A DNA stretch of 32,027 nucleotides, taken from the IMG/VR virus record IMGVR_UViG_3300025087_000236, positions 1 to 32,027 of that record, one strand, 5' to 3'. The DNA comes from a virus. Below, piece after piece: positions 489 through 29,081 of the stretch. The notes below the pieces were generated by a model. The model was not told the DNA's origin, made no database searches, and was given only the letters and a program-made list of their open reading frames with translations. The translations under genes and the position numbers were made by a program. Position 1 is the first letter of the stretch. Every line of letters starts with the position of its first letter.

Positions 489-490
489 TC

Positions 491-2774: not shown

Positions 2775-2787
2775 CAAAAGGAAAATC

Positions 2788-3012: not shown

Positions 3013-3016
3013 ACAC

Positions 3017-3199: not shown

Positions 3200-3207
3200 G
3201 AGGCAAT

Positions 3208-3588
3208 ATGCCAAAATTTTTAGTCAACGAAGCATTTCAATTTCGCAGTCAAGTCCATCGTGTTGGGCTTATCCTGACGATTCCCAAGGAAGACTTGCAC
3301 ATTGAAATCGAGAGGGGCAAGCACCCGAGCAAAAAGAATGACCGCTGGCTTTCGGGCCTGCTGAACAACTGCGTTCCAGCTGATGAGGCCACAGCTCAGA
3401 TAATTGCCAAAGCCACAGGCCAGGAAGTAGAGGCCGCCACTCTTGAAGACGATGATAAGGAAAGCCACGCAGGGGAAATCGAAGACATAAGGGCGGAGAT
3501 GGACGGGATGGGCGCCGCCTACGATAAACGGTGGGGTCTCAAAAAGCTTCAGCATGAGCTTATTAAGGCTAAGAAAATCCGGGGGTAA
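3208..3588 (+). CDS. Phage protein with C-terminal HeH/LEM-like helix motif
   Basis: A 126-residue protein starting at ATG 3208 behind AGGAGGC. The N-terminal half (FRSQVHRVGLILTIPKEDL, then KHPSKKNDRWLSGLLNNC) looks beta-rich and carries a Trp-Leu-Ser-Gly-Leu-Leu helix. After a short acidic linker, the C-terminus MGAAYDKRWGLKKLQHELIK has the aligned Y-D-x-R-W-G-x-x-x-L signature of small HeH/LEM-type helix-extension-helix domains found in many phage head-region proteins. It lies between the small head proteins and the head-tail adaptor, so a head completion or DNA-contact role is possible. Exact function unknown. Confidence 0.68.
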   Translation: MPKFLVNEAFQFRSQVHRVGLILTIPKEDLHIEIERGKHPSKKNDRWLSGLLNNCVPADEATAQIIAKATGQEVEAATLEDDDKESHAGEIEDIRAEMDGMGAAYDKRWGLKKLQHELIKAKKIRG

Positions 3589-3591
3589 GCC

Positions 3592-4182: not shown

Positions 4183-4186
4183 CCAA

Positions 4187-4795
4187 ATGACCCAGAAGAA
4201 ATGCACACAGTGCGGAGAAATTAAGTCGCTGTCTAATTTTTGCAAGCATTCAACCTGTAAAGCCGGGGTTCGCCCTATTTGCAGAGAATGTAAAAGAATT
4301 GCTTTGGCAAAATGGCGGATGGAAAATAGAGCGAAAAGCAGGGAAATAGATCGAAAGTGGAGAGAAAAAAATATCGAAAAAGTCAGGATGTCACGAAATA
4401 AGTGTATTGCTAAAAAGCGTGCAACTCTTGCCGGAACCCTAAACCATCGCATATCGGTAGGGATGCAGCAGTCATTAAAGGGAAACAAGAAGGGCAGAAG
4501 TTGGGAATCGTTGGTAGGATTTAGCCTTGAAGAGTTGAAAAAGCATCTTGAGAAGCAATTTAAGAAGGGAATGTCCTGGGAACTAGTAATGACTGGACAA
4601 ATACACATAGACCATAAGATACCCATCGCGGCATTTAATTATGACAGCCCAGAAGATATAGATTTCAAAAGATGTTGGGCGCTTAAAAACTTGCAACCCT
4701 TATTTGCTTTAGAAAACAAAACAAAAAAGGACAGTCTTTATAGGCCATTTCAACCAGCACTATTATTACAAGCAGCACAAACGGAGGGCAGGTAA
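4187..4795 (+). CDS. HNH homing-type endonuclease with N-terminal zinc finger
   Basis: A 202-residue basic protein. The start is set at ATG 4187, four bases after the adaptor stop, with GGAAG upstream; a longer reading from 4097 overlaps the adaptor. Seen: an N-terminal zinc-binding pair (CTQC with CRECKR, plus two extra Cys between), a Lys/Arg-rich middle, then a C-terminal HNH core with IHIDHKIPIAAFN and WALKNLQPLFALENKTKKD. HNH enzymes of this kind cut DNA and spread as selfish free-standing genes in phages. It sits between two tail genes normally adjacent, and its composition is more AT-rich than both neighbours, supporting insertion. Its last codons carry the ribosome binding site of the nozzle gene. 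Confidence 0.85.
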   Translation: MTQKKCTQCGEIKSLSNFCKHSTCKAGVRPICRECKRIALAKWRMENRAKSREIDRKWREKNIEKVRMSRNKCIAKKRATLAGTLNHRISVGMQQSLKGNKKGRSWESLVGFSLEELKKHLEKQFKKGMSWELVMTGQIHIDHKIPIAAFNYDSPEDIDFKRCWALKNLQPLFALENKTKKDSLYRPFQPALLLQAAQTEGR

Positions 4796-7528: not shown

Positions 7529-8028
7529 TGTGTACGGGTGTTGAAATAGCATTGTTGGCCGCCACGGCAGTATCAGCGGTAGGTACATTAGAGGCAGGCC
7601 AGCAGCAGGCGCGAATGGCTGAATATAATGCCCGCGTAGCCGAACAAGGAGCGGCGGCGGCGGCTGGCGAAAAAGCGACTTACGATGAGCAGATACACCG
7701 GGAGCAGGTGCGAAAAATTTTGAGCCAGCAGCGGGCTCTTTACGGAAAGTCCGGTGTGGACATGACAACAGGATCGCCCTTGCTGGTGATGGAAGACACG
7801 GCGAAAACCGGCGAACTTGACGCCTTGGCTATTCGATACGGCGGTGAGGTCGAGGCAGCCCGGGCGCGGAGCGGAGCAAATTTATCAAGGATGCAGGGGC
7901 GGACTGCACAGACAACAAGCTATTATCAAGCTGGAACGACTTTGCTTAGTGGCGGCGCCCAAGCATACGGCAACTTTAAAAAATCACAACTGTCTACACG
8001 GCCCATTATATTGAAATCAGGTGGATAA
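7528..8028 (+). CDS. Internal virion protein, T7 gp14-like
   Basis: A 166-residue protein with a hydrophobic N-terminus (CTGVEIALLAATAVSAVGTL) followed by a long Ala-, Gln- and Glu-rich helix (QQQARMAEYNARVAEQGAAA). It then has a conserved-looking stretch RALYGKSGVDMTTGSPLLVM seen in phage internal core proteins after the nozzle gene. Such proteins leave the head first at infection and help form the channel through the outer membrane. It overlaps the nozzle stop by one base (TAATG) and is followed immediately by the next internal protein. Confidence 0.75.
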   Translation: MCTGVEIALLAATAVSAVGTLEAGQQQARMAEYNARVAEQGAAAAAGEKATYDEQIHREQVRKILSQQRALYGKSGVDMTTGSPLLVMEDTAKTGELDALAIRYGGEVEAARARSGANLSRMQGRTAQTTSYYQAGTTLLSGGAQAYGNFKKSQLSTRPIILKSGG

Positions 8029-9978
8029 ATGCCAATAATTCCTCTCCTCCAAAGACGGCAGAGTATTTCTGGCGAGGCGGCAAGTGTGCCGGGCAATATC
8101 GGTGCGGCCGGCATTGTCGGTGAAGCCGTGGCGCGGGCTGGCGCAAGAGGCATGGCTATCTCTGAGGATTTCGCCGATCTGGTAGCGCGACGCAATGAGG
8201 AATTACGGAAACAAAACAATGCCTTTGCAGTCCTAAAAACGCAAAACTCCATAGATGAGGACATTAGAACTTTTCGGCAAACCTATGACATAGAGGCGAC
8301 AAAAAGCGCGGCAGATCCCGGAGGATTATTACAATTCACCAACGACCGGATAGATGCCTTTTCCAAGTCCCTGGATGAAAAGTACCTAGCCAATGTTACC
8401 GATGCCGACCGGAAACTATACATTGAGCAATACCGCAATTCTGCCATTGCCCGAGTTTTGGACCATACTGCCGTCTATCAGTCCAATTTCAGGCAGGATT
8501 TTGCCAAGACAGAGATTTCAAGGGCTAAGGACTTATCACTCGCGGCAGTGCGCGGCGGCGCCGATTATGAGGCCGAAATCGAAACCTTCCGGCAAAAGGT
8601 AGGCGCTTTATACGCGACCGGCGCCGTGAACGCGCCCGACATGGAAGAAATAATCATCCAAACGGACCGGCAAATAGCCGGGGCCTATCTGGATTACCTG
8701 CTTGCCAATAACCCAATCAAGGCCCGTCAGGTAATCAAATCAGGCCGAATTATTGAATTCTTGCCGGGTGAACAATACCGTTACTATGCTGCACGGGCCG
8801 AAAGCCTGGGGCAGGCAGAGGAAAAAATCGTTAAGGAAAATGAGGCCTTTGGCGCCGTCCTTGAGAATTTCCGGGAACCAACAGGCATTATAAATGTATC
8901 TAAAGCCGTAATCGCCGTTGAAACCGCTAAAACAGTGGGCGGAATTGATTTTAGCAGCCTTGATCGTGAGACAAGAAACAGCCTGAAAAGCCGCTTGGGA
9001 GCTATTGACGCGGCACAGAAGGCGCGGCGTCATGAGGTTAGCAACGGATTGATGCTCGACATAGAGAAAAACATTCTCAATTACAATGCAATCAATAACC
9101 CACTAGGGCTGACTCAGGCAAAAATGGCAATAACCAGATTGATGGAGGATCCGGAGAACGCGGACATGGTAGGACCGCTGATGCAGTACTCAAGGATCAT
9201 TGATACAATCTCCCGCCAGGAAGAAGCAGAACGGCGGCAAGAAGAGAGGATCGCAAAGCAGGAGGAAGCCGCAAAGAAAAGAGAAGAAAAGGCCGAAAAG
9301 GTAGAGGCCAGGATCGAGGCGAGGGAAATAAGATCGGAGGCGGCACGAGAGCGACAAGAGTCCAGAATCTTAAAACAAGAGTCAGAGGAAGACGCGAATG
9401 CCGAAATGCTGGCTCGCGTCAACAACGGCGATTTTATAGATATTTACGATCCACAGGACGGGAACCGCAGGTTGTTGGATGTTGCAACAAGACTGGGCGT
9501 ACCCAGGCGCAACTTCCAGCAATACGTTGCCATGAACAATGATCACATGAAAAGTTCGGGCATGCAGAATTTCTGGTCACAGGTCATGACGACCTTGAAC
9601 AAAGCCTCTACGGAGGGCAGCAATACATATGTCAAGAATATTGTGGCTAATAAAAGCCGGATAATCAATAGCTTACAATTCTACATGACCAAGCCTTCAG
9701 AATTGGATAAAAGCTTTGGGGATCAGCCGATTACGATCTATAATCCGAAGGTCATTGACCTATACAATAAACTGATCGAGAAAGCCGATAAAGAGGCTTT
9801 CTTCGGTTACGATTTCAGCCCATATCTACGGGAGTTGCCTCCTCCAAGCAGGAGATTTGCGACGCCGCGGCAAGGCGGCAAGGTTGAGAATTTGCCGGAC
9901 GGCGCCAGATTAGCCGCAGACGGTCAATGGTATGTCCCTGACCCGGCGCGGCCGGGTAAATATTTGAAGGTGGAATGA
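8029..9978 (+). CDS. Internal virion protein, T7 gp15-like, coiled coil
   Basis: A 649-residue, highly helical protein with no clear membrane segment. The N-terminus is Ala/Gly-rich (AGIVGEAVARAGARGMAISE). The middle (around residues 390-460) is a long charged coiled coil dominated by Glu, Arg and Ala (RQEEAERRQEERIAKQEEAA). The C-terminal part is less repetitive and ends in a Gly/Pro-rich stretch with ADGQWYVPDPARPGKYLKV. The order 166-, 649-, then 1951-residue proteins behind the nozzle mirrors T7 gp14, gp15 and gp16, so a role in the ejectosome is inferred. It overlaps the next gene by four bases. Confidence 0.7.
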   Translation: MPIIPLLQRRQSISGEAASVPGNIGAAGIVGEAVARAGARGMAISEDFADLVARRNEELRKQNNAFAVLKTQNSIDEDIRTFRQTYDIEATKSAADPGGLLQFTNDRIDAFSKSLDEKYLANVTDADRKLYIEQYRNSAIARVLDHTAVYQSNFRQDFAKTEISRAKDLSLAAVRGGADYEAEIETFRQKVGALYATGAVNAPDMEEIIIQTDRQIAGAYLDYLLANNPIKARQVIKSGRIIEFLPGEQYRYYAARAESLGQAEEKIVKENEAFGAVLENFREPTGIINVSKAVIAVETAKTVGGIDFSSLDRETRNSLKSRLGAIDAAQKARRHEVSNGLMLDIEKNILNYNAINNPLGLTQAKMAITRLMEDPENADMVGPLMQYSRIIDTISRQEEAERRQEERIAKQEEAAKKREEKAEKVEARIEAREIRSEAARERQESRILKQESEEDANAEMLARVNNGDFIDIYDPQDGNRRLLDVATRLGVPRRNFQQYVAMNNDHMKSSGMQNFWSQVMTTLNKASTEGSNTYVKNIVANKSRIINSLQFYMTKPSELDKSFGDQPITIYNPKVIDLYNKLIEKADKEAFFGYDFSPYLRELPPPSRRFATPRQGGKVENLPDGARLAADGQWYVPDPARPGKYLKVE

Positions 9979-12900
9979 TGCCGAAACTAACGCCAATTGA
10001 TTATGATCCCTTCGAGAAAAAGAGCGCCATAAATTTGACGCCCGTGGATTATGATCCTTTTGGCCAGGGAAGCAATGTGATCCCGATCCGACGCCCTGGC
10101 GAAGGCACAGAGGCCATGAGGATTTTTGCGCCGGCAAAAGTAAGAGGTTTGAGACTTTACGAAATAGGACAGGAATTTAGCGGTGTAACATCTTTATCTG
10201 AAGACAAGGGCTATTCCGCGCCCGAATGGTTACGCTCCGTTTTTGATGCGCTATCCCTGACGGATGAATACCAAGGCGAAAGGGCGCGGGCCGCCAACAT
10301 AACCTCCCTGGCTGAAGAACTGAACATAAGACCAAGCCAAGCGGAGCGTGACTTTGATGTACTGACCGGAAATATTTTTTCAAGGAACCGCCTGCCCGAC
10401 ATGGGCGTGAAGGGCGCCGGCGAAATCGCCATGTTAGGCGGTGTGGCGCGGCTGGCCATGACGCATCCGATCGCTACCCTTGCTTCAATTCCTGCCTTTG
10501 CTGGGTTGAATGCCCTTTACACGGCGATTCTTGAGCGTCAACATGGCATCCCTGGAGTGGGTTTGACCGGATTCTTACCGGAAAATACGATTCAACCGGC
10601 CAAAGATATGGTTTGGCTGGCCGAAACTATAGCACAGGCCTATGCCGTATCCCCTGTTTTCAGGTTGGGGAAGAACCTTGATACGCGCTACACGGAGCCC
10701 CTAAAGCGGGCAGTTACTGAAAAATGGTTTAAAGACGTGACCGAGACTTTCAAGTCTCCAGAAAGCTTCTATATTTCAGCCGGCAAGATTCGGAGGTTTT
10801 TTGGTGGCGGCAAGGTTGGAGAAGAGATCTCACCCGAAGAATTTGACATACTACAGACCTATGGCATTCCCAGGGAGTACTACCGGGCGGCGGTAAAGCA
10901 AGGGCTCGACATTGAAATTCCTGCTGAAAGAATTGTCACCTCTGCCGACAAGCCATGGTGGAATAATATTAAGAACGCCTTCCGGGTATCTCCGCAGTGG
11001 GAACCGCCTATTGAAATAATAAAAACGGGCGATGCGAGAGCGGCAATCGTCAGACCTCATGTATCGGGTCTGCTGGAAGGCGGAACGGGAACGCGACGCA
11101 GTTTTACTGATATTTACAAGGACCTTAACAATTTCTTAGGCGAAAGTGGGCAGATAGGACCGAAAGAAAAGACGCCTGAGCAAAAGCAAGCGGCAGATCG
11201 GCTTAAAAACGATCTTGCGATTATCAAAAAAGAGGCGGAGCAGGCCGGGAAGGACTTTACCGAATATCTACGAGAAGTCGGGTTTGATGAACCGGCAATT
11301 GCGGCGGCAATAAAGATTTTGAGTTTGTCCGAAGAACCGGAAACCAACATACTCCCCGAGGCAACCCCGAAGGCTATCGAGCTATGGGAGATGACGAAGG
11401 AAGAAGTAAAATCCGGTTTATCGAAAGATCTCATCTATAAGCCCGAATCCATGTCAAACGAAACATTGGCTATGCGTGGTTTTAATGGAATAACTGTAGT
11501 AGGCGATAAATTTTTTGATCTCCCTCCCTTGGAACGCAAATCATTATTATTGCATGAAATAGGACATGAAATCTCCAGGTCAATTATCAAAGATCCTTTC
11601 TGGGTTGATCTCATGGAGCCATTGCGCATACAGGATGGATCGCCAAGAAGTATAAAGTCAAAATATAGAAATCCCGTTGGCGGCTCTACGCGCCCGGAAG
11701 AAATTATCGCCGACATTGCCGCTGATATCAAAGAACACGGAATGCCTGATTTTTCAACTGGATGGAGTGAAGAAAGTAAAATTACGCTTGCGCCTATTTA
11801 TGAGCGCGTATTTAAAGAGTTGGCAAAAATCGAGGAACTAAAGCAATCCTACGAGACAACCTCGAAGGGTGAGGGGCAGATGCAGCAAACGCCACGTATA
11901 AATCCCATCACAGAAAAAGCGGGCGCACTTTTAAATGCAACAAATACAAAAACCCTGACCTCCCACAGAGATTACGAAGTTGCCAAATCCGGAGGGGCGC
12001 TTGCCGCCGTGAGTCTCGTGCGTGATCTGGTCAAGCCGGAATCGCTCGATTATGCCCGAAGCCTCGGAAGCGATGTGATTTATGTCCCAGTTATCTCCGT
12101 CGAAAAATCCGGCATGAACGCAATCCCTCAAGCCCTGGCACATTACCACGCACAGGCGGCAGGCGCCAAGGTTGCTGATGACATTTACCAGGCGAATAAG
12201 ACTTATCATACGGGTGCCGATGCCTTGAGCCGATTACTAAGTCGTCCCACTTTTAAAGGCCCTGTTATCCAGGGCGGCCGCTATATTTTGGTGGATGATG
12301 TTGTTACGATGGGCGATACTTTAGCCGAATTAGCGGATTATATTAAGAAAGGTGGCGGAGAAGTTGCGGGAATAATAGTTCTTGCAAATACCGCAAAATC
12401 TGCTAATATAGTGGCTACTCCTGCATCAGTGCAGGAAATAAAAAGGAGATTTGGCGATGCCATTGAAACCGAATTCGGAATTAAGCCAGAAGCCCTCACC
12501 AAGCCAGCCGCAGAATACCTCCTTAAATTTAAGGATGCTGACAGACTCAGAAACCGCATCGCTATTACAAAAAACAAAGGAAAACTCGGAGTTGTTCAAG
12601 AAGGCGTTCAACCCGGAACCATAACGCCGGAAATCTTATCCTCTCTCCAGAAAACGCAAACCATAGACCTGACAGACGAAGCCAATACCTTGCTTGACCT
12701 TGCCGCGGCCGAAGAAACCGGCAAGGGAATGCCTGACGATCCATCTTATGAGCAGATCAAGGCGGAGGCGGCGAGGCTGGCCCGGGAACGGATGAAGAAA
12801 AATAAAAACCTTGTGAAAAAAAGGATGGAGCGGGCCGCTACGCAGGCCGCCATGACCGCAGCCAGAGAAACGCCGGTTCAGGCCGCCATGACCGCAGCAA

Positions 12901-15830
12901 TCAAGGCCGGTGGTTTTCGATATGATAGCATTCGCATTGATTATTCCCGGGATACGATCAAGGAACTGAATCAAAAGCGGCCGGGCTTGGTTGCCAATGA
13001 CGGCAAGGCACGGCTTGATGAGTTGGCGGAGGATCATGGCTTTGAAGATGGCGACGCCCTGCTTGAAGCGATGTTGTCGGCGGAACCAATAAAGGAAACG
13101 GCTGGCAAGATCAAAAGACAATTCGATGACATGATGGCAGAGGAATTAGAGGCCATTGCCGAAGACACGGGCTATCTTGTCGATGTTTACGAGGAGGAAG
13201 AAAAAATCCTGGCCAAACTTCTCAAGGAGAATAAGCCGAAACCCGCTAAGTGGCTAAAACATTTCATCAGGGAAGAGACGGGACAAATAAGGGTCGGGGA
13301 CCTTGTGCTTTCAGAATATGACGCCCTTAAGGCTGCCATGAAGAAAGCGGAAACAGCTTCACGGATTGCCTACCGAGAGGGCAACAAGACTGGCGCCCTG
13401 GCAGAAAAAACAAGGCAACGAGAGATTGCGGCGCGTCTGAAGGCACGGTTGGATGCCAAGGCAGAGACAAAGAAGATCTACGATGACATCATAAAGCTTT
13501 CGGGAAATAAGAAAATCCCCCTGGATTACCAGGATCAGATTGCCGAACTCCTGGAAGGATACGACCTGCTACCCAGATCATCCAGGGGCGAACGGCAAGT
13601 TGAGTCATTGCAACGTTTTCTCGATCGCGCCGAGGCGGAAGGAGAGGATGTTAATATTCCCCGCTCGCTTCTGGCCAAGGTGGAACGCTATGGCCGGGTG
13701 CATTGGAAAGACCTGACACTTGCCCAACTGCGCGACATCTACGATCAGGCAAAAATGATTGAGCATCTGGGCAAATTAAAGGGCGTCTTACTAGCGCGGG
13801 CCAGAGAACGGGCATATGAAAAAACGATCGCAAATATCACGACTACGATCAAGACCAATCATCCGGTGAGCGATGAGGATATCCAAGATAAAATCGATAG
13901 GATGGTGCAGAAACGCTTATTGGAGCCATCCCGCATCCAGGAGATTAAGGACTTTTTTACTGGCTATAGCGCATCCCTGATTAAGCCGGAAATGATATTC
14001 AGATTTCTTGATAACTTTCAAGATCTAGGGCCAACGTGGACGGAACTTTATCAGCCGATTAAAACTGCATCAGACGCCGGCATACGGTTGCGCCAAGACA
14101 TTTTACCAAAACTGGAAAAGCTCTTTGAACCATTCACGGCGACGGGCGGCTACCGGTGGAAAAGCGAGAAATATTATATTCCTGAGATCGGCAAGACTAT
14201 GACGAAGGAACGGATACTCATGATCGCCCTCAATACCGGCAATAAGGGAAACCTGGACGCCCTTATAGAGGGCTATGGCTGGGATGAGACGCAGATAAAT
14301 GCCATTACCAGCCATCTGACGGCCGAAGAATGGAAATTTGTATCAGGAACATGGGCGTTATTGGAAGAACTGTGGCCGCACCTATCCGGTATTTACGAGC
14401 GGATGAGTGGCGCTAGGCTGCGGCGAGTCGAAGGCAATTATTTCCCTCTGAAATTTGACCGAAAACTCTCCTGGATTGCCGACAAAAACGCCATGGAAAA
14501 GGATTTACGGGATTTCTTCCAAAGCTATTATGCAGTCCGGCAGCCGGAATCAGGCTTTACGAAAGAAAGGACGGGCGGGAAAATGCCTCCGCTTCTCGAC
14601 TTCGACGTAATCTTTACGCACATTGCCGATGTCACGCATTACGTGACCCATGCCGAGGCTATCAGGGATGTGCAAAAACTATTAAGAAATCCACGGGTAC
14701 GGGCGACTATCGAATCGGTGCCGGATATTGGGGAAACAGGCTACAAGGAATTACTGCCCTGGTTGCAGGATATAGCCAAGCCCCGCGTTGAGCCATTGAC
14801 TAAGGTTGATCAGATTATTGACGCCCTGCGCCGAAACACCACCGTAGTAGCCCTCGGCTTGAAGCTGCCCGTGGCGGAACTTCAGCTATTAGCAATCACA
14901 CAGACTATTAACGAAATCGGCGCCGAAGCTACCATGAAGGGCATTGCCGAATTTTATGCGCATCCTGTGGAAAACATCAGGAAGATAAAAGAATTGTCCG
15001 CCGAGATGAGCGTCCGCGCGATGGTTTGGGATCGGGAACTCAAAGACGCCTACGGAAGATTAGGCCTTGAATACTTCAAATATTCCCAGACCGTCAAGGA
15101 CGCCTTTTTCGGCCTGATCTCAATGCTTGACATGGCTGTGGCATATCCCACGTGGATGGGGGCCTATGATATTGGCGTGGCAAGATTCGGGGAATCGCAA
15201 AAGGCTAAAGAGTTTGCGGATATGTCGGTCAGGAAGAGCCAAGCCTTGGCCTTGACAAAAGACCTGGCCGGGATTCAGCGAGGCGGACCCCTTACAAAAC
15301 TGGTAACGATGTTTTATACATTTCTCTCCGGACTGAATAACCTGTTTTGGGAGATGCACAAAAAATGGAAACTGTCTGACGAGAAGATCGCATCTACTGT
15401 TGACTTGATTAAGGCTTATTGGTGGCTGCTGATTTTTCCTGCTGTGGCTGCCTACGCCATAAGGGAAAGGCAAATCCCGAGTGCAAAGACCACAGCCAAG
15501 GAGATATTAAAATATAGATTGGCAACCTACCCTTTCTTCCGGGACTTAACGGCGCCCTGGGTATCTGATTACGATTACCAGCTCACGCCCGTTGGTAGGG
15601 CCGGTGAAGTTATGGGGAAATTCGGAAAAGAAATCGGGCAGGGCTTGGCGGGTGACAATAAGTTTGATGCAACCCAGTTATTTCTATACGGCCTGGAAAG
15701 TTCTGGCTATGTTTTTGGCTTGCCAACAGACCAGGCCAAAATAACGGTTAAGGGTTTTCTTGATCTAAAGGCAGGGAAAACAAATGATTTTACGCGGTTA
15801 TTTTTCAGAGAATCGCAAAAGCAGAAATAG
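9975..15830 (+). CDS. Giant polyvalent internal virion protein: HEIGH metallopeptidase-like, phosphoribosyltransferase and LPD38-like regions
   Basis: A 1951-residue protein. Seen in order: an N-terminal duplicated peptide (LTPIDYDPF and LTPVDYDPF); a zinc-peptidase-like motif LLLHEIGHEISRS with H527, E528 and H531, and a downstream PEEIIADIAADI near residue 575 that could give the third ligand; a phosphoribosyltransferase-like region about 640-840 with the PRPP-loop motif ILVDDVVTMGDTLAEL near residue 773; a long charged helical region about 860-1300; and a C-terminal region with LIKAYWWLLIFPAVAAYAIR near residue 1814. The C-terminus resembles the LPD38 domain of polyvalent proteins, which phages and conjugative elements deliver into the recipient with DNA. 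By position it replaces T7 gp16. Enzyme activities are inferred from motifs only. Confidence 0.8.
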   Translation: MMPKLTPIDYDPFEKKSAINLTPVDYDPFGQGSNVIPIRRPGEGTEAMRIFAPAKVRGLRLYEIGQEFSGVTSLSEDKGYSAPEWLRSVFDALSLTDEYQGERARAANITSLAEELNIRPSQAERDFDVLTGNIFSRNRLPDMGVKGAGEIAMLGGVARLAMTHPIATLASIPAFAGLNALYTAILERQHGIPGVGLTGFLPENTIQPAKDMVWLAETIAQAYAVSPVFRLGKNLDTRYTEPLKRAVTEKWFKDVTETFKSPESFYISAGKIRRFFGGGKVGEEISPEEFDILQTYGIPREYYRAAVKQGLDIEIPAERIVTSADKPWWNNIKNAFRVSPQWEPPIEIIKTGDARAAIVRPHVSGLLEGGTGTRRSFTDIYKDLNNFLGESGQIGPKEKTPEQKQAADRLKNDLAIIKKEAEQAGKDFTEYLREVGFDEPAIAAAIKILSLSEEPETNILPEATPKAIELWEMTKEEVKSGLSKDLIYKPESMSNETLAMRGFNGITVVGDKFFDLPPLERKSLLLHEIGHEISRSIIKDPFWVDLMEPLRIQDGSPRSIKSKYRNPVGGSTRPEEIIADIAADIKEHGMPDFSTGWSEESKITLAPIYERVFKELAKIEELKQSYETTSKGEGQMQQTPRINPITEKAGALLNATNTKTLTSHRDYEVAKSGGALAAVSLVRDLVKPESLDYARSLGSDVIYVPVISVEKSGMNAIPQALAHYHAQAAGAKVADDIYQANKTYHTGADALSRLLSRPTFKGPVIQGGRYILVDDVVTMGDTLAELADYIKKGGGEVAGIIVLANTAKSANIVATPASVQEIKRRFGDAIETEFGIKPEALTKPAAEYLLKFKDADRLRNRIAITKNKGKLGVVQEGVQPGTITPEILSSLQKTQTIDLTDEANTLLDLAAAEETGKGMPDDPSYEQIKAEAARLARERMKKNKNLVKKRMERAATQAAMTAARETPVQAAMTAAIKAGGFRYDSIRIDYSRDTIKELNQKRPGLVANDGKARLDELAEDHGFEDGDALLEAMLSAEPIKETAGKIKRQFDDMMAEELEAIAEDTGYLVDVYEEEEKILAKLLKENKPKPAKWLKHFIREETGQIRVGDLVLSEYDALKAAMKKAETASRIAYREGNKTGALAEKTRQREIAARLKARLDAKAETKKIYDDIIKLSGNKKIPLDYQDQIAELLEGYDLLPRSSRGERQVESLQRFLDRAEAEGEDVNIPRSLLAKVERYGRVHWKDLTLAQLRDIYDQAKMIEHLGKLKGVLLARARERAYEKTIANITTTIKTNHPVSDEDIQDKIDRMVQKRLLEPSRIQEIKDFFTGYSASLIKPEMIFRFLDNFQDLGPTWTELYQPIKTASDAGIRLRQDILPKLEKLFEPFTATGGYRWKSEKYYIPEIGKTMTKERILMIALNTGNKGNLDALIEGYGWDETQINAITSHLTAEEWKFVSGTWALLEELWPHLSGIYERMSGARLRRVEGNYFPLKFDRKLSWIADKNAMEKDLRDFFQSYYAVRQPESGFTKERTGGKMPPLLDFDVIFTHIADVTHYVTHAEAIRDVQKLLRNPRVRATIESVPDIGETGYKELLPWLQDIAKPRVEPLTKVDQIIDALRRNTTVVALGLKLPVAELQLLAITQTINEIGAEATMKGIAEFYAHPVENIRKIKELSAEMSVRAMVWDRELKDAYGRLGLEYFKYSQTVKDAFFGLISMLDMAVAYPTWMGAYDIGVARFGESQKAKEFADMSVRKSQALALTKDLAGIQRGGPLTKLVTMFYTFLSGLNNLFWEMHKKWKLSDEKIASTVDLIKAYWWLLIFPAVAAYAIRERQIPSAKTTAKEILKYRLATYPFFRDLTAPWVSDYDYQLTPVGRAGEVMGKFGKEIGQGLAGDNKFDATQLFLYGLESSGYVFGLPTDQAKITVKGFLDLKAGKTNDFTRLFFRESQKQK

Positions 15831-15839
15831 GAGGGAAAA

Positions 15840-18347
15840 ATGAAAATGAAAGAAATTATTGCCGCTATCTGGCTGGTTTTAATCTTTGGCATTTCGGCGC
15901 TCAGTCATGCCACGGTAAGCAGCGAAACCGCAAAAGTATCCTACACCTGCAACGGTGTGCTGGCGACATATGCCTATACGTTTAAAATCTTTGAGGATGA
16001 CGACCTCCTGGCTATCAAGACCTTGACAGCGACCGGAACCGAAACCACTCTTGTGTTGAATACCGATTACACGGTAACGGGGGCAGGCAATACAAATGGC
16101 GGCAACGTGATACTCACGGCGGCCAGTAAATGCGCCTCGGGTTATTCGCTGACGCTACTCCGCAATATGGACATAACCCAGGAGACAGATTACGTGGATG
16201 GCGAGGCCTTCTCGGCCACATCTTTTGAGAACGCCCTGGATCGGCTGACGATCGGTCAGCAGCAGCACGGCGAGGCTCTTGATCGGGCGCTTAAGAATCC
16301 CGTAAAATCTACCGCTACCTTACCCGGTGCTGTAGCCGGGAATTATATCGGCTGGAATGATACCGCCACGGCCCTTGAAAATAAGATCACGGCCCTGCAG
16401 GTGGGCGCTACCGCCGGCACAGCCGACAACCTTTTCTACGCCGACCCCGACGCTGCCGACCAGGGCGCGACCACCAACCCCCGCTCCATCGCCTCCCTCC
16501 TCGCCTCCATCGGCACCTCAAAGTCAGCCACGATTGTTCTGGCCCATTCGAGTAGTGGGAATATGACGACATATACGGTGACGACGCCAGTTACCTTTGC
16601 GAGCTATCCACTAATCAAATTAAGTGTGGAAAGCGGTGCAATAATTAGTGGAACACTTACTGGATTGAGGCAACAAGTGAAACCTGAGTGGTGGGCCTTA
16701 AATACTATACCTGGCACTACTGATATGAGTACTGCCCTAAATGCGGCTTCAGCAGCAAGTACGGAGATTATTTTATCTAATCGTTATAAACACTCTACAA
16801 CGTGGTCTGTGCCATCCGGTAGGAAGATTCACGGAGTATCACGTAGTTCAACACTTGAGTCTTGGAATGTTAATGGTATTACTATTATCGAAGCTGCTCG
16901 TGATGAAGGCGTTGAAATATATGATTTTCAAATGACTTCATTTACTGCTGTTGGGGCACCTACAACTGGTAGTCCTATAAATAAGGGTATTACAGCAATT
17001 GGTGATTATGCTGGTGTTGGTGGGCCATTCTATTCGATAAGTATTCACGACATGCAGTTTCAGGGGTGGGATACAGCCATCTATTTTTATGATATTTGGG
17101 ATTCAAAGATATCATATAATCAATTTGTCTACAACCAAACTGGAATTGACTTAACAAATTTATCTGCTCGCATAAATATTACAGACAATATGTTTGTAGC
17201 GGACGACGGAGTAGTAACTACTTCATCTTGTATAATATTAAATAGAGATAACTACACAAGTGAAGGAGTTATTATATCCAACAATAAACTCTATGATCAT
17301 GCCTTCGGTGTGAAGTTGCCCTTACTTGGTTCAGGCATCAGTATTCTTGGAAATGAGTTCGACAACACAATAAGTGCTATCTATGCAAACATAAATGAGG
17401 GTCTCACTATCGTTGGCAATTATTATATGCGATCATCAGGAAGTGAACCTACTATAAAATTTCCTGACCAAGGAGCTTTATCTGCAAAAAAAGTAGTCGT
17501 TGCCAATAATTACATAATCAATGCTGGTACAGGAGTTGGAATCTATCTGGGAGAATTACAGTCTGATTATACTGTTATAGGTAATGTCATTACAAGTTCT
17601 GAAACTATTATTACAGTCAGTGCAAACGTAACCAATACGAATATTTCAGGTAATATTGGAAAGGTGGATGATGCCAGTTCTATTTCTACTATCGCTGTAT
17701 TCGGCGGTACACGTCTATCTATTACAGACAATGTAAATGTGCGAGTGAAACTATATTGGCCAGATATAGTTGATGCGGCTATTAGTAATAATACATTTAC
17801 TCAGAAAACCTCTTTAAATGTTGCAGTTCCTACAACTGGAACATGGAATCAAGGAGATATAGTATATAAACAGTTTCAGGGAACGGCTCCTTACACAGCC
17901 CCCAATCAATCGTCTCTCGGAGATATTATTGGCTGGGTATCTACGTCTTCGGGAACGTTCTCGGCAGCCACGGATAATACGGGTGACACTACATTAGACA
18001 GCCAAACGATTACTGGTCTGACAGATACTAGTGATTTCTATCCAGGAGACTATGTGACGATCTCGGCTGGATTTGCCTCAGCCACTACGCCGATGCAGAT
18101 CATTACCAAAACAGCTACTACTTTGACTTTTGATGAATATTCAAATGGGACTCAGGCAAATGTTACGATAGCAACAGTTGATCCTATATTCAGAGCATTT
18201 GGCCAAAGAGGTTACAGAGAAGGAGCAGTCAGTCCAGCAGGAGTGATAACACCGTATTTTATCGGTGAAGAATATCTAGATTCAACAGCAAATATATGGT
18301 ATAAGAGCTACGGTGTTACAAATGTAAATTGGGCTGCGTTAAATTGA
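15840..18347 (+). CDS. Tail fibre/tailspike with T7 gp17-like N-terminus, beta-helix body and a signal peptide
   Basis: An 835-residue protein behind GGAGG. Residues 1-24 look like a secretion signal (MKMK, then IIAAIWLVLIFGIS and LSHA before TVSS). Residues about 25-160 match the phage T7 fibre N-terminal domain that docks on the tail: VSYTCNGVLATYAYTFKIFE, later LTLLRNMDITQETDYVDGEA and SFENALDRLTIGQQQH. From about residue 280 the VKPEWWALN segment opens a pectate-lyase-like right-handed beta-helix with repeated N-x-F/I-turn units (SYNQFVYNQTGIDL, ISNNKLYDHAFGVKL, ILGNEFDNTISAIY). GC content drops sharply around base 16550, within the gene, suggesting the receptor-binding part was acquired separately. 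It probably binds or degrades a surface polysaccharide. Confidence 0.82.
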   Translation: MKMKEIIAAIWLVLIFGISALSHATVSSETAKVSYTCNGVLATYAYTFKIFEDDDLLAIKTLTATGTETTLVLNTDYTVTGAGNTNGGNVILTAASKCASGYSLTLLRNMDITQETDYVDGEAFSATSFENALDRLTIGQQQHGEALDRALKNPVKSTATLPGAVAGNYIGWNDTATALENKITALQVGATAGTADNLFYADPDAADQGATTNPRSIASLLASIGTSKSATIVLAHSSSGNMTTYTVTTPVTFASYPLIKLSVESGAIISGTLTGLRQQVKPEWWALNTIPGTTDMSTALNAASAASTEIILSNRYKHSTTWSVPSGRKIHGVSRSSTLESWNVNGITIIEAARDEGVEIYDFQMTSFTAVGAPTTGSPINKGITAIGDYAGVGGPFYSISIHDMQFQGWDTAIYFYDIWDSKISYNQFVYNQTGIDLTNLSARINITDNMFVADDGVVTTSSCIILNRDNYTSEGVIISNNKLYDHAFGVKLPLLGSGISILGNEFDNTISAIYANINEGLTIVGNYYMRSSGSEPTIKFPDQGALSAKKVVVANNYIINAGTGVGIYLGELQSDYTVIGNVITSSETIITVSANVTNTNISGNIGKVDDASSISTIAVFGGTRLSITDNVNVRVKLYWPDIVDAAISNNTFTQKTSLNVAVPTTGTWNQGDIVYKQFQGTAPYTAPNQSSLGDIIGWVSTSSGTFSAATDNTGDTTLDSQTITGLTDTSDFYPGDYVTISAGFASATTPMQIITKTATTLTFDEYSNGTQANVTIATVDPIFRAFGQRGYREGAVSPAGVITPYFIGEEYLDSTANIWYKSYGVTNVNWAALN

Positions 18348-20003: not shown

Positions 20004-20226
20004 TCAAGAGGTTGGCGAGTTGTCGTCAACCCCTTTTTCGTCTGATCTAATGTTTTCGTCTAATATTTCCGGGTAAAGCGACGGGATCGACAATGCTTTC
20101 TTGGCTTGCAGGTCGTCCACTAAGTGCGCGCGCCTGATGGCCGACCCTCTGGGCCAGTTCCAGGATGTTGGCGCCTTCCTTCAGGGCATGGGTAATGAAA
20201 AAGTGCCGAATATTAATCCGTGATTT
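20004..20226 (-). pseudogene. Tyrosine recombinase (integrase) C-terminal relic
   Basis: Read on the minus strand, the sequence gives RINIRHFFITHALKEGANIL then ELAQRVGHQ, the RHxFxTHxLxxG...LGH box of tyrosine recombinases. Just past that box, near 20124-20134, the meaningful frame shifts: the next frame reads AHLVDDLQAKKALSIPSLYP and on to a stop at 20004-20006, like the C-terminal tail after the catalytic tyrosine. The short piece that would carry the tyrosine is missing and the N-terminal two thirds of the gene is absent (stop at 20227-20229, then AT-rich non-coding DNA). It ends seven bases from the tRNA fragment, the expected place for an integrase beside its att site. It cannot encode an active enzyme. 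Confidence 0.8.
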
Positions 20227-24693: not shown

Positions 24694-26406
24694 ATGTTGA
24701 CCCTTGACCCTCAGCAGCAAGCGGCGGTGATGACATCCTCACGGCGCGCACTTATCGAAGCATCGCCTGGCAGCGGGAAAACACATTGCATCATTGAGCG
24801 CGCCGCCTACCTCATGGAAGAGCGTAGCGTATCGCCATACGAAATCCTACTGGTAACGTTTACAAGAAAAGCCGCTCAGGAAATGCGCCAGCGTCTCGTG
24901 GCCCGTATAGGAAGTAAGGGACATCATTGTACGATTGGCACTTTCCACGCGATCGCCCTGGATCATTTGCAAAGGTTTGGGGGGGCCATCGGTTATAAAA
25001 CGGGCAATACAGTCTATGGTGAGTGGGAGGAGCAATTTCTCCTGAGGGATGTTGCGCAGGAAATGGGCATCCTGCGGGGAAAGACCTGGAAAATACCCAA
25101 GAAGGATGTGCAGGGTGTCTTCGATCATTACTATCAGACGGGAGAGGAGCCGGAATTATATGATCCCTGTTATGACCTTTTCCGGGCGTTTATTCAGCGA
25201 TGCCGGGAAAACAATAGTTACACCTACGGCAGCCTACTGACGGGCTTCAAGATGCTGCTGCCCCATATCGCGCAGTATCTTCAGTGGAAGCACGTCATAC
25301 AAGACGAGAGCCAAGACGCAGATAGATTACAATGGTCCATCGTCGAGGAGCTGGTGAAGTGGTGCGGGGCATCGCTCTACTGCGTGAGCGATTTGGACCA
25401 GACCTTGTACCACTGGCGCGGCGCCTGTCCGGAGTATATCCTGGAGAATCAGGACAGCTTCAACATCTACAAGCTGGAGACCAACTACCGCAGCGTGCCG
25501 GAGATCGTCATGGCGGCAAATAGTCTCATTTCCCACAATCGGGACCGGATCACCAAAACCATGGTGCCGGCAAGAGAAGATGGTGGCGAGATCGGCTATC
25601 TGAAGGACATGGACAGCGATGCTGTGGTCAAGATACTAACGCAACTGGATGGCCCCCATACAGTTCTCGCTCGCAACCACTTCCTCCTGGAAAAAATTTC
25701 GCGCCTCCTCTGCGAGCAGGAAATTCCCCATGTCTATGTCGGACAATGTTCGGCCCTGATCAATAGTGAGGAGTTCCGACGCTTTCACGCATTCCTCAAG
25801 CTGCTTGTCAATCCGTTCGATAACTTCTCATTCCTGCTCATCAAAGACTTGGTAGGCATTTCACAGGAGGAATATGCGGTGATCCGCGTGAAAGCGGCGG
25901 AAGCGGGGCTATCTCATTTCATGGCGTGGAGTAAATGCTATGATTTTGTTGATGAACTTCTCGGCGACGGAGACGATCTATGGGAGGTAGCGGACAGAAT
26001 AGCACGGCGTTTAGAGGGCAATAATTTTTATTTCGGCCCAGCCAGTGCCTTTATCCGGCAATATGAGGGTAAACGCACAATCACGGATTATCTCAACTGG
26101 CTGGCCCTGTACGAGGTTACCGACGATATCAGGGAAAAGGACTGCGGGATAACGTTGATGACGGTGCACGCCGCAAAGGGGTTGGAGTGGCCAACCGTAA
26201 TAGTCGCGGGCTGCAACGAAGGGATCCTCCCGTCAAAGCACGCAGCGGACAATGACGAGGTGGAGGCAGAGCGACGCCTATTCTATGTGGCCATGACCAG
26301 GGCCCGGGATCAACTTGTGTTGACCATCAGGCCAGAGGTGATAGAGAAGGATGGGCGGGTTTACGAGATCCCGAAAAGCAGATTTGTGGGGGAGGCGTTT
26401 TCATAA
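24694..26406 (+). CDS. Superfamily 1 (UvrD/PcrA-like) DNA helicase
   Basis: A 570-residue protein. Motifs in order: Q-motif LDPQQQAAV; Walker A ASPGSGKTHCI near residues 24-34; VTFTRKAAQEM (motif Ia); GTFHAIALDHL; motif II VIQDESQDADRLQW near residue 203; SDLDQTLYHWRGA (motif III); LETNYRSVPEIV (motif IV); LMTVHAAKGLEWPTVIVAG (motif V region); and RRLFYVAMTRARDQLVL (motif VI). These define an SF1A 3'-to-5' helicase for replication, repair or recombination. It is shorter than UvrD and lacks most of the 1B/2B insertions. It follows the SbcC-like pair by 37 bases. An attC-like site starts at its stop codon. Confidence 0.92.
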   Translation: MLTLDPQQQAAVMTSSRRALIEASPGSGKTHCIIERAAYLMEERSVSPYEILLVTFTRKAAQEMRQRLVARIGSKGHHCTIGTFHAIALDHLQRFGGAIGYKTGNTVYGEWEEQFLLRDVAQEMGILRGKTWKIPKKDVQGVFDHYYQTGEEPELYDPCYDLFRAFIQRCRENNSYTYGSLLTGFKMLLPHIAQYLQWKHVIQDESQDADRLQWSIVEELVKWCGASLYCVSDLDQTLYHWRGACPEYILENQDSFNIYKLETNYRSVPEIVMAANSLISHNRDRITKTMVPAREDGGEIGYLKDMDSDAVVKILTQLDGPHTVLARNHFLLEKISRLLCEQEIPHVYVGQCSALINSEEFRRFHAFLKLLVNPFDNFSFLLIKDLVGISQEEYAVIRVKAAEAGLSHFMAWSKCYDFVDELLGDGDDLWEVADRIARRLEGNNFYFGPASAFIRQYEGKRTITDYLNWLALYEVTDDIREKDCGITLMTVHAAKGLEWPTVIVAGCNEGILPSKHAADNDEVEAERRLFYVAMTRARDQLVLTIRPEVIEKDGRVYEIPKSRFVGEAFS

Positions 26407-26491
26407 TAACGCCATGATCAGCCACCGGGCCACGGGCTGAAATGAAAACCATCCACGCTGATTCCCTGCCGGCTGGATTAAATTGTTAGGA
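26405..26491 (+). other. attC-like recombination site 1
   Basis: It opens with TAAC (26407-26410), directly after the helicase stop, and closes with GTTAGGA (26485-26491), a fit to the R' core GTTRRRY. Inside, ATCAGCC (26417-26423) pairs with GGCTGGAT (26471-26478) leaving one G extrahelical, then further G/C pairs, with a longer central region. This is the least regular of the four sites. Its R' end overlaps the AGGAGG ribosome binding site of the following gene. Confidence 0.65.
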
Positions 26492-26497
26492 GGTTTG

Positions 26498-26815
26498 ATG
26501 GGGGGAAGATATAAAATAGATTGCTTGGAGTGGAACCCACAACATGTAAGATTCAACGTATTCGACCCATTTGGTGCAAATTGTGGAGTATTAACCATAC
26601 TTGCTAAGGATGTTAAAAACTTTGTTACGAATTCATGGAAGGGTGACATCTTCTGGAACGGAAAGATGCCTCAAGATTTTATAATGGGGGATGCAATGGA
26701 AATTATCACAGCCCTGGTCAGGGGGATTGAGTTATGGGCATCGGATGAGGATGGCGTACACGAGGGGTGCTGGGAAGCATATCAAAAAGCCAAGTTTTAT
26801 ATTGGTGAAATATAA
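26498..26815 (+). CDS. Cassette gene 1: unknown 105-residue protein
   Basis: It starts at ATG 26498, four bases behind AGGAGG that is part of the preceding attC R' box. The protein has a beta-rich first half (MGGRYKIDCLEWNPQHVRFN, FGANCGVLTILAKDVKNFV) and a helical second half (DAMEIITALVRGIELWASDE, CWEAYQKAKFYIG). It has three cysteines without a zinc pattern. It resembles the small orphan proteins common in environmental integron cassettes; no family recognised. Confidence 0.65.
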   Translation: MGGRYKIDCLEWNPQHVRFNVFDPFGANCGVLTILAKDVKNFVTNSWKGDIFWNGKMPQDFIMGDAMEIITALVRGIELWASDEDGVHEGCWEAYQKAKFYIGEI

Positions 26816-26871
26816 CGTAGAGGTCAGCGGTGCGCAGCTTTTTGCGGCTCCGCTGGAGTGACTGGTTATAC
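26810..26871 (+). other. attC-like recombination site 2
   Basis: ATATAAC (26810-26816) and GTTATAC (26865-26871) form the outer pair. After an unpaired spacer on each side, TCAGCGG pairs with CCGCTGGA leaving one extrahelical G, and GC-rich bases close around a TTTTT loop. The stop codon of cassette gene 1 is the TAA of TAAC. Outer boxes, unpaired spacer, inner stem with extrahelical G, and about 60-base size are all as in canonical integron attC sites. Confidence 0.85.
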
Positions 26872-26887
26872 GATTGTTGGAGGAAAC

Positions 26888-27103
26888 ATGGGGAACTATC
26901 ACGAACATACAGGAGGACATCAAAAAGAAACTCACGTAAAGCCCGTAGTGGACCACTTTCTCTGTAATCACTGTGGATCGGGTGAAAAAACAAAAAAGGT
27001 CGTTGTCTATAATATGGCAAACATTCTTTGTTTTTCATGCCGAAGCCGAATGCAGGATGAAATTATAGATATAGCAAAAAGGTATTTAATTGTTTCTGTA
27101 TAA
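26888..27103 (+). CDS. Cassette gene 2: small zinc-ribbon-like protein
   Basis: A 71-residue protein starting at ATG 26888 behind GGAGG. It has a His-rich N-terminus (GNYHEHTGGHQKETHVK) and two CxxC knuckles (CNHC and CFSC) separated by about 22 residues, consistent with a single treble-clef or zinc-ribbon fold. The C-terminal helix is MQDEIIDIAKRYLIVSV. It may bind nucleic acid or a protein; no family assigned. The stop TAA is shared with attC site 3. Confidence 0.65.
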   Translation: MGNYHEHTGGHQKETHVKPVVDHFLCNHCGSGEKTKKVVVYNMANILCFSCRSRMQDEIIDIAKRYLIVSV

Positions 27104-27163
27104 CGCTAAAGCTAAGCGGCGTGGCGGCTGTATGCCACGTCCGTCTTGAGCGCCTGGTTATGG
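27098..27163 (+). other. attC-like recombination site 3
   Basis: GTATAAC (27098-27104) and GTTATGG (27157-27163) are the outer boxes. GCTAAGCGGCGTGGC on the left pairs with GCCACGTCCGTCTTGAGC on the right, leaving T, T and G extrahelical on the right arm and an 8-base loop. Unpaired spacers lie between outer and inner boxes. The extrahelical bases all on one strand are the feature that sets strand choice in real attC recombination. Confidence 0.87.
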
Positions 27164-27182
27164 TGTTTTTTATGGAGGTTCT

Positions 27183-27866
27183 ATGAGTCTCGTAAAATCT
27201 AAAGGAAATATGTATTCTTGGATAACTCACCAGCATTGTCATTTGGGTGGAGAGTGCCCGCATGGGTGCGTATATTGTTATGTCAATAGTTTCCCATTTG
27301 GTCGTCCGGAGAAATATAAAGGCCCGTTGCGCCTGATAGATAAGGAATTTTCCGTGAACTACGGAGAGGGAAAGACAATTTTTGTTGAGAATTGTAACGA
27401 TTTGTTTGCCGAGAAAGTTCCCGAAGAGTTTATAATGCGCGTTATTGGCCATTGTAGGCACTGGCCTGCCAATACCTATGTTTTTCAGACAAAAAATCCG
27501 GCAAATTATCTGCAATGGTTGTCGCTCATGCCTCCTAACTACATTCTCGGATGCACGATTGAGACGAACCGGAATATCCCAAAAATCAGCAAGGCCCCGA
27601 AAACGGTGGAGCGAGCGCGGGCGATGAACTGCCTGACGGGACAACGCCGCTTCATCACCATAGAGCCGGTTTTGGATTTCGATGTGGACATTCTTGCGGA
27701 TTGGATACGGCGCATAAACCCTGAATTTCTGAACCTTGGGGCAGATAGTAAAAATAATAATCTCCCGGAACCCACGATTGAAAAAATTGTAGGATTGACG
27801 GAAAAATTAAAGGAATACGGCATTGAGTTGCGAGAGAAACATAATCTTTCTCGTCTCAGGCCATAA
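27183..27866 (+). CDS. Cassette gene 3: radical-SAM protein of the phage Gp37/Gp68 (DUF5131) type
   Basis: A 227-residue protein behind GGAGG. It carries a CxxxCxxC iron-sulphur cluster motif (GGECPHGCVYCYVN, residues about 23-36) that in radical-SAM enzymes holds a 4Fe-4S cluster and cleaves S-adenosylmethionine. Further segments fit the phage Gp37/Gp68 group: IFVENCNDLFAEKVPEEFI, YVFQTKNPANYLQWL, ILGCTIETNRN, RRFITIEPVLDFDV and LNLGADSKNN. The substrate of the group is not known to me. The length is near the family norm. Its TAA stop is the start of attC site 4. Confidence 0.85.
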   Translation: MSLVKSKGNMYSWITHQHCHLGGECPHGCVYCYVNSFPFGRPEKYKGPLRLIDKEFSVNYGEGKTIFVENCNDLFAEKVPEEFIMRVIGHCRHWPANTYVFQTKNPANYLQWLSLMPPNYILGCTIETNRNIPKISKAPKTVERARAMNCLTGQRRFITIEPVLDFDVDILADWIRRINPEFLNLGADSKNNNLPEPTIEKIVGLTEKLKEYGIELREKHNLSRLRP

Positions 27867-27922
27867 CGCTGAATTGAGTGGCGGCCCGCTTTTTGGCCGT
27901 CCACTCCAATGACTGGTTATAA
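27861..27922 (+). other. attC-like recombination site 4
   Basis: CCATAAC (27861-27867) and GTTATAA (27916-27922) are the outer boxes. Five unpaired bases follow on each side, then ATTGAGTGGCGGCC pairs with GGCCGTCCACTCCAAT leaving a C and a T extrahelical, around a CGCTTTTT loop. This is the cleanest of the four and a textbook attC shape. Confidence 0.9.
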
Positions 27923-27937
27923 TTTTGTTTTGTAGGT

Positions 27938-28723
27938 ATGCGAATTATTAGAGTTTTCCCAAGAAAAACGAAAGCAACGCCTGCCGATAACCTCGTAAGA
28001 ATTGGCAAGGGGCCGGGTTTGTTCGATGAGGCGGATCAGGTACACATTTCCGTGGCGTTCACTTGGGATATGCCCCTTGCCGAAAAGTTGGCGCGTAAAT
28101 GGGGTGACGTGGCTCCAGTCAAGATCGGCGGCCCGGCCCTGGGTGAACGAAGCGGAGAGTTCACGCCAGGGATGTACTTGAAGCCAGGTTATGTGATAAC
28201 TTCGCGGGGATGCCCGAACCGCTGTTGGTTTTGTTCAGTACCAAAACGCGAAGGTGGAATCAGGGAATTACCGATAACGGACGGTCACAACATACTTGAC
28301 GATAACCTCCTCGCTTGTTCGGATGACCATATCCAGCGTGTTTTCGTAATGCTGAAAAAACAAAAAGAGCCGATTGAATTTACAGGCGGACTTGAGGCAG
28401 CGCGATTGAGGTCGTGGCATGCGGATGAACTTAAAAAGCTGAGAATAAAACAGATGTTTTTCGCTTACGACACGCCGGATGACCTGGAACCATTGCAGCA
28501 GGCTGGAAGATATCTGCGTAGTCATGCGATGAGGTGTTTTGTATTATGTGGGTATCAAGGAGATTCGATCAGTTATGCAGAATATCGCATGAGAAAAACC
28601 ATGCAGGTCGGATTTACCCCAATGGCGATGCTCTGGAAAGACGAAACGGGCAGGTGTGATCCAGAGTGGGGGAAATTTCAACGGGAATGGGCAAGACCGG
28701 CAATTATTTATAGTAGATTATAA
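27938..28723 (+). CDS. Cassette-like gene 4: second radical-SAM protein
   Basis: A 261-residue protein starting at ATG 27938. The motif RGCPNRCWFCSVPKREGG (residues about 90-107) is a CxxxCxxC radical-SAM cluster loop, preceded by VKIGGPALG and KPGYVITS, the layout of B12-binding-domain-associated radical-SAM proteins, although the N-terminal domain is short. Later strands of the partial barrel are seen: HNILDDNLLACSDDHIQRVF, EFTGGLEAARL, QMFFAYDTPDDLEPLQQAGR and RCFVLCGYQGDS. It shares little sequence with cassette gene 3 beyond the motif. The stop TAA at 28721 again opens a hairpin, but no good R' box follows. Confidence 0.8.
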   Translation: MRIIRVFPRKTKATPADNLVRIGKGPGLFDEADQVHISVAFTWDMPLAEKLARKWGDVAPVKIGGPALGERSGEFTPGMYLKPGYVITSRGCPNRCWFCSVPKREGGIRELPITDGHNILDDNLLACSDDHIQRVFVMLKKQKEPIEFTGGLEAARLRSWHADELKKLRIKQMFFAYDTPDDLEPLQQAGRYLRSHAMRCFVLCGYQGDSISYAEYRMRKTMQVGFTPMAMLWKDETGRCDPEWGKFQREWARPAIIYSRL

Positions 28724-28766
28724 CCATTGATTATCAGGTAGATTTGCCCTGATAATTATGTTTTCG
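28721..28766 (+). other. Hairpin after cassette gene 4, possibly a decayed attC
   Basis: TAAC at 28721 overlaps the gene stop as in the four attC sites. A perfect 9-bp stem follows (ATTATCAGG with CCTGATAAT), with a 9-base loop. There is no extrahelical base and the expected GTTRRRY is replaced by a weak ATGTTTTC. It may be an eroded attC, or a simple transcript hairpin without a proper T tract. Confidence 0.35.
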
Positions 28767-28782: not shown

Positions 28783-29081
28783 ATGATTAAAATCACCGAG
28801 CATGACGTTACTGTAGGCATCAGGCAGCTACTCCGTACTGTCGGGATTTGGCATTTTAAGCATTGGGGGGGGCGATGGGAGAAAAGGGCGTGGCGGATAT
28901 CATCGGCTGCTGGAAAGGCCGAATGATCGCCATAGAGATCAAAAAGCCGGGCGGGAAGGCTACGCACGCGCAGCTTAGTTTTTTGGAGTGCGTAAATCAG
29001 GCCGGTGGGATAGGGTTTGTAGCAGATTCAATAGAGGTTGTTATCCGGGAGCTGGGATTGCAGGATAGATTTTTGGTGTGA
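28783..29081 (+). pseudogene. VRR-NUC nuclease gene split by a frameshift at a G8 tract
   Basis: From ATG 28783 the frame reads MIKITEHDVTVGIRQLLRTV and on to FKHWGG, then enters a run of eight G (28865-28872) and goes off frame, stopping soon after. The next frame, from the same run, reads GGAMGEKGVADIIGCWKGRM and IAIEIKKPGGKATHAQLSFL to a stop at 29081: the G-V-x-D-I-x-G, E-x-K, Q core of VRR-NUC nucleases (Holliday-junction or flap processing in phages). Nine G, or a -1 ribosomal slip on the run, would join the halves into a 99-residue protein of normal family size. It could be a sequencing error, a phase-variable tract, programmed frameshifting or a mutation. Confidence 0.75.

Follow-up and report, generated by a model that had tools for sequence, protein, structure and literature searches.

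Four attC-like sites and their genes in the window

The window analysed here is the whole stretch of 32,027 nucleotides at positions 1 to 32,027 of the IMG/VR virus record IMGVR_UViG_3300025087_000236, which encodes a major head protein and a tail protein (PHROGs). An array of four hairpins, all within 1.5 kb, that resemble the attC sites of integrons (Table 1) is flanked by a phage uvrD helicase gene on the left and a VRR-nuclease-like gene on the right. The outer boxes of each hairpin are TAAC and GTTA; between them are spacers and an inner GC stem, and one arm has extra bases. Each hairpin is predicted to fold stably. The uvrD stop codon is 3 nt from the first crossover; site 1 adjoins this codon and belongs to cassette A, not to uvrD.

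A covariance model, R1, was built from 54 known attC sites, none of them from the window. Its training loci were integrons beside integron-integrase genes (80 bacterial genome contigs), class 1 plasmid integrons and known phage integrons, the last being a minority drawn from phage records already described as integron-carrying (L018, L019, L020). R1 gave exactly four matches in the window at E<=10, all on the minus strand, and none on the plus strand. Accepted integron attC sites score 18-46 bits with R1, and 159 kb of DNA from related and control phages gave no match above 14.4 bits. An independent rule-based scan of the 32-kb window, with thresholds that were set after inspecting bacterial sites and that take in the weakest window site, returned the same four sites and no others. 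The same scan of block-shuffled windows gave a mean of 0.14 sites and a maximum of 2 (120 trials). All four sites have complementary R''/R' boxes (RYYYAAC ... GTTRRRY) and an inner L''/L' stem, and in a by-eye comparison site 2 resembled the attC sites of a chromosomal Desulfobacteraceae integron (L060). These results indicate that the four sites are integron-type attC sites. The preliminary description had placed four hairpins of the attC plan here, and both R1 and the rule-based scan confirmed them; the claim also withstood the covariance-model comparison that it had proposed, which was run with R1.

The sites were assigned to the minus strand because R1 scored that strand only, because the L'' arm carries the extra bases and because a C precedes GTT. 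When the four window sites were read on the minus strand, the L'' arm, next to R'', was longer by 2-3 bases in every one. It was also longer in 63 of the 72 bacterial and 25 of the 27 phage attC sites in the same orientation. A C preceded GTT in 69 of 72 training sites and likewise in all four window sites on the minus strand, where the bases after AAC also fit canonical attC. The extrahelical bases that give attC its strand bias were found on the L'' side in all four on this strand. These results indicate that the window attC sites are canonical on the minus strand and that the genes are reversed relative to them. The earlier claim that the sites run in the gene direction was not supported, as all four score only on the strand opposite to the genes.

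Cassette limits were taken as the G/TT crossovers (the slash marks the crossover) read on the minus strand. On the plus strand, the order in each cassette is attC, ribosome-binding site, gene and TAA, and every cassette gene ends with its TAA exactly at a crossover. In a canonical gene cassette the gene is parallel to attC; all four window genes are antiparallel. The nearest homologue of gene D, in L158, has 81% protein identity, and the DNA similarity of L158 to the window is confined to the interval between the two boxes that delimit cassette D, ending at TTATAAC. The array had previously been described as three cassettes. Instead, it has four and runs to 28723, with the radical-SAM gene D as the fourth. 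A profile search with gene B gave only a weak GATA-finger match.

Table 1. Positions of the cassette array and its left and right edges in the window.
Feature	Position	Strand	Evidence or remark
UvrD/Rep-type helicase gene, left edge of array	24694..26406	+	PF00580 2e-45; PHROG 1967 DNA helicase 7e-96
attC site 1 (cassette A)	26404..26491	-	R1 17.9 bits, E 0.062; L'' arm 2 bases longer
Cassette A: attC site 1 and gene A	26410..26815	-	G/TT boxes from sequence
Gene A, about 105 aa, no family found; TAA stop at crossover	26498..26815	+	
attC site 2 (cassette B)	26810..26871	-	R1 22.1 bits, E 0.0068
Cassette B: attC site 2 and gene B	26816..27103	-	G/TT boxes
Gene B, 71 aa, small four-cysteine (zinc-ribbon-like) protein; TAA stop at crossover	26888..27103	+	Sequence
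attC site 3 (cassette C)	27098..27163	-	R1 31.0 bits, E 6e-5
Cassette C: attC site 3 and gene C	27104..27866	-	G/TT boxes
Gene C, 227 aa, DUF5131 / phage radical-SAM-like; TAA stop at crossover	27183..27866	+	PF07505 6.5e-12; PHROG 2045
attC site 4 (cassette D)	27861..27922	-	R1 26.4 bits, E 7e-4
Cassette D: attC site 4 and gene D	27867..28723	-	L158 similarity limits
Gene D, 261 aa radical-SAM protein	27938..28723	+	PHROG 9298 4e-20
Right array edge	28724..28762	.	Box GTTATAA on minus at 28724-28718, then 9-bp inverted repeat

On the 32-kb window contig, which may be incomplete, no match reached the TIGR02249 cut-off and PF00589 had no match; the intI gene of a complete integron was not found there. 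This bears out the earlier observation that no integrase is nearby. Integron integrases and other tyrosine recombinases were likewise not found on a second contig of the window phage (G002), on its cousin G003 or on G010. Two or more close attC sites without intI nearby define a cluster of attC sites lacking integron integrases (CALIN). With four sites in 1.5 kb, the window array is by membership a CALIN with a non-canonical gene orientation. A fragmentary 11-bit match to the integron integrase profile at 20134-20211 of the window, on the minus strand, is probably due to chance.

Backward cassettes and integron integrases in other phages

Other arrays were reached with the gene D protein and with a DNA pattern derived from sites 2 and 4. 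Genes opposite to attC were found on the viral contigs L148, L155, L117, G010 (two arrays), G019 and G020. L148 has eight or more attC sites and includes gene D, and the gene D family also occurs in backward cassettes of G019, G020 and L158. Searches of viral contigs with UvrD and gene A as baits, and of genome contigs with gene C, gave no match, and no related array was found in the plasmid collection. Gene D was not seen in four integron-bearing bacterial genomes, in a search that had no positive control. G010 is a 66-kb phage contig with two attC arrays pointing opposite ways (L244 16194-19421 and L245 5421-7546); in each array the genes run counter to the attC sites. The contigs L109, L119 and L120 share an identical attC-like site, which scores 17.9 bits and has the stop of an open reading frame (ORF) at its box; its status is uncertain.

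The gene direction of each cassette was scored from its longest ORF. Bacterial cassettes were 62 parallel and 4 antiparallel to attC, whereas phage cassettes were 17 parallel and 48 antiparallel, and 9 of these 17 came from one contig, L331. By locus, genes were antiparallel in 19 of 23 scorable phage arrays as compared with 0 of 22 bacterial integrons (Fisher p 4e-9). Among phage loci found via IntI alone, which involves no selection for orientation, 12 were antiparallel and 3 parallel. The stop codon lay exactly at the crossover in 19 of the 48 antiparallel phage cassettes, and the two features of the proposed class, attC antiparallel to the gene and a stop at the crossover, were found together in all four window cassettes. 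The phage cassettes carry N6/N4 and C5 DNA methyltransferases and a PAPS-reductase-like enzyme. These results indicate that the backward layout is widespread in other phage contigs. L331 itself, an isolate-genome contig classed as viral, holds a canonical many-cassette integron and served as an internal control.

Viral contigs were also searched with an IntI alignment, which gave 169 relatives, of which 80 were kept. At least 12 backward phage arrays lie upstream of an integron integrase gene, several of them on contigs with terminase, portal or capsid genes. By PHROGs, the terminase large subunit is encoded on the intI contigs L258/G020, L267, L270 and L272, the portal on L267, L270, L272, L278 and L299, and major head or maturation proteins on L276, L297, L299 and G019. 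The integrase of G020 is intact and scores 327 bits, above the TIGR02249 cut-off; its gene immediately follows two cassettes, one carrying gene D and the other a methyltransferase. In these phages, as in bacteria, the attC sites are upstream of and antiparallel to intI. The gene order in the phages is phage genes, cassette genes, attI and intI, all in one direction. Phage IntI sequences fall mostly in phage-only clades: the IntI tree had 12 label changes as compared with 54 by shuffling, with mixed support and an arbitrary root. The virion genes of G019 show it to be distantly related to the window phage. The G019 array is followed by a truncated integrase (L241 6250-6756, G019 26250-26756), in which the usual start region leads straight into the C-terminal half. 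Judging by this gene, the G019 array may be losing autonomy.

The integrase-bearing phages share a sequence after the last crossover, just before intI, which is presumably attI. The right flank of the window begins with a sequence similar by eye to this phage attI and has an inverted repeat. The alignment behind R2, a sequence model of phage attI, gave an RNAalifold consensus without base pairs. By its position, the right edge of the window array might be an attI remnant; this is a guess, and R2 did not confirm it.

Cassette gain, loss and sharing were observed between phage contigs. L279 equals L278 minus exactly two cassettes, with the junction at TAA/C. L155 and L117 share 99% identity as far as an attC site and have different cassettes beyond it. 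One cassette is common to L278 and G019 and is 96.9% identical from end to end. Elsewhere, similarity between these two contigs is limited to the surroundings of attI and intI (about 78-79%) and to repeated attC parts. L260 and L278, the integrases of which are in different clades, have a cassette that is identical over 98 bp, ending at the crossover. These results indicate that cassettes move, and we infer that recombination of these arrays is active. The preliminary description had proposed that relatives be compared for cassette turnover. Gain and loss at G/TT was found in other phage pairs, but homologues of gene C and most of those of gene D were without detectable sites.

Interpretation of the array and its alternatives

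Taken together, the site models, the cassette boundaries and the phage comparisons make it very probable that a tailed phage carries an integron array of four cassettes here, one of a family of phage integrons in which the genes and their attC sites point in opposite directions. Several points weigh against this interpretation. Site 1 is weak (E 0.06 with R1). Most gene D relatives and all gene C relatives (L011-L013) that were found are ordinary phage genes without detectable attC; gene C alone is therefore no marker of the system. R2 gave no match at the right flank of the window, and the window phage has no recombinase on its 32 kb. A close cousin, G003, has neither the array nor uvrD and therefore provides no direct empty site for the window locus. 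The comparison contigs are all metagenomic assemblies.

The alternative that survives best, although it is unlikely, is that a host bacterial integron put ordinary cassettes into a G/TT-like secondary site after uvrD, with the phage as a passive carrier. Insertion at a single site after a stop codon on a contig where no integrase was found, the likeness of site 2 to a Desulfobacteraceae chromosomal integron and the known integrase-free attC clusters of phages (PMC9892861) are all consistent with this. However, bacterial cassettes have genes parallel to attC (62 parallel to 4 antiparallel), whereas each of the four window genes is antiparallel and has its stop at a crossover, and the same layout with the same gene D occurs in phages that have their own integrase. 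The view that the cassettes were simply borrowed from bacterial integrons is also a poor fit: the genes are parallel to attC in bacterial integrons but antiparallel in these phages, and an integron integrase is encoded by many of these phages themselves.

A plus-strand reading, in which the three cassettes A, B and C would be ordinary ones oriented like the phage and site 1 would be the entry point, is very improbable. As attC is nearly palindromic, either reading is plausible by eye, and the plus strand looked natural because TAAC overlaps the stop codons and GTTA precedes the ribosome-binding sites, an arrangement seen in ordinary cassettes. This reading is contradicted by the lack of any R1 match on the plus strand at E<=10, by extra bases that would be on the wrong arm in all four sites, and by gene D, which acts as a fourth cassette. 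Transcription terminators or RNA processing signals that resemble attC would account for stable intergenic hairpins within an operon, but this is scarcely credible since the hairpins have no match in Rfam, their boxes, spacers and arm asymmetry fit attC, and sites of this kind in other phages coincide with precise gains and losses of genes.

In known integrons, the choice of the bottom strand sets cassette orientation (PMC8946536). For the phage integron array proposed here, an integron integrase would recognise the folded bottom strand of attC, which corresponds to the plus strand of the window and to the coding strand, and would insert cassettes at the G/TT site at the downstream end of a phage operon. 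The cassettes would be expressed from the upstream promoter of that operon. Since bottom-strand recombination fixes orientation, only genes placed backward would be read in the phage direction. Backward placement may have been selected, because recombination of the bottom strand at an operon-end attI would otherwise leave the genes antisense. More speculatively, transcription of the operon could expose the coding strand, here the recombining strand. As the array is present and no recombinase was found on its contig, the window phage probably depends on an integrase supplied in trans, and a co-infecting phage or the host might mobilise the array in this way.

On balance, we slightly favour a broader interpretation in which tailed phages own an integron system. 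Such a system would comprise several phage-only integrase lineages and backward cassettes circulating among unrelated phages, with a gene pool separated from bacterial cassettes by orientation; arrays of the window type would be non-autonomous and served in trans. If so, phage cassettes would lie in antisense orientation when placed behind a bacterial Pc promoter, as would bacterial cassettes in a phage operon.

Relation to known integrons and further observations

Integrons are regarded as bacterial devices that are occasionally picked up by phages. Should phages possess integrase lineages of their own and a distinct pool of backward cassettes, integron recombination would be a regular engine of phage accessory-gene exchange. 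The genes exchanged in such a pool would include DNA methyltransferases, radical-SAM and PAPS-reductase-like enzymes and small proteins of no known family. The strand choice of attC, which sets cassette orientation, would then be exploited in the opposite sense.

A previous report (Qi et al. 2023, PMC9892861) described attC clusters and integrons in phages TJE1, P12002L, PH101, M16-3 and Va_90-11-286_p16, and of six phage attC sites that were tested, five were recombined with attI1 by the integrase IntI1. Phage attC clusters and their recombination by IntI1 are therefore already known. Like the window, the phages in that report have integrase-free attC clusters and single-gene cassettes, and they carry methyltransferases, as do the phage cassettes in this study. 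Unlike in the window, the genes of TJE1, M16-3 and the Vibrio phage are parallel to attC, as checked here. The complete integrons in that report are in temperate phages and are similar to host integrons; the report describes neither backward cassettes nor intI clades confined to phages.

The phage arrays share with chromosomal and class 1 integrons the attC boxes, unpaired spacers, extrahelical bases and G/TT crossover, as well as an attC array that is upstream of and antiparallel to intI. They differ in gene direction: chromosomal and class 1 genes are parallel to attC and divergent from intI, whereas phage genes are antiparallel to attC and co-directional with intI. The 'atypical' integrons of Treponema (PMC3607928), which were compared by gene and intI direction only, also have intI and cassette genes in the same direction. 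In Treponema, however, intI is transcribed toward attI with the genes downstream, while the phage genes lie upstream and are transcribed toward both attI and intI. A search of the open literature, most subscription papers and preprints being outside it, found neither backward cassettes nor phage-only integron integrase lineages; within that literature, both appear to be undescribed.

Two integrase genes of other phages were observed outside these arrays. An integron integrase gene lies between the terminase and portal genes of L306 (2218-3204) and L308 (622-1608), which are nearly identical phage contigs from two samples. No attC was detected on them. They were considered as kin of the window array and rejected, having neither attC nor a link to the window, and they represent a separate phage use of IntI. 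In L338 (KX853513.1, Virus Rctr41k), an IntI-like gene at 4680-5678 is annotated as xerD and no attC was found nearby. This was the only record in the phage collection with an IntI-like gene outside known host-type integrons.

To the right of the array, a frameshift in a stretch of eight G (about 28866) seems to interrupt the VRR-nuclease-like gene (window 28785-29081): the upstream ATG frame, MIKITEHDVTV..., continues in another frame. This may be either a sequencing error or real. The second contig of the window phage, G002 (L017), which has the same sample number as L308, is 99.99% identical over positions 1-16003 of the window and extends 2.3 kb leftward.

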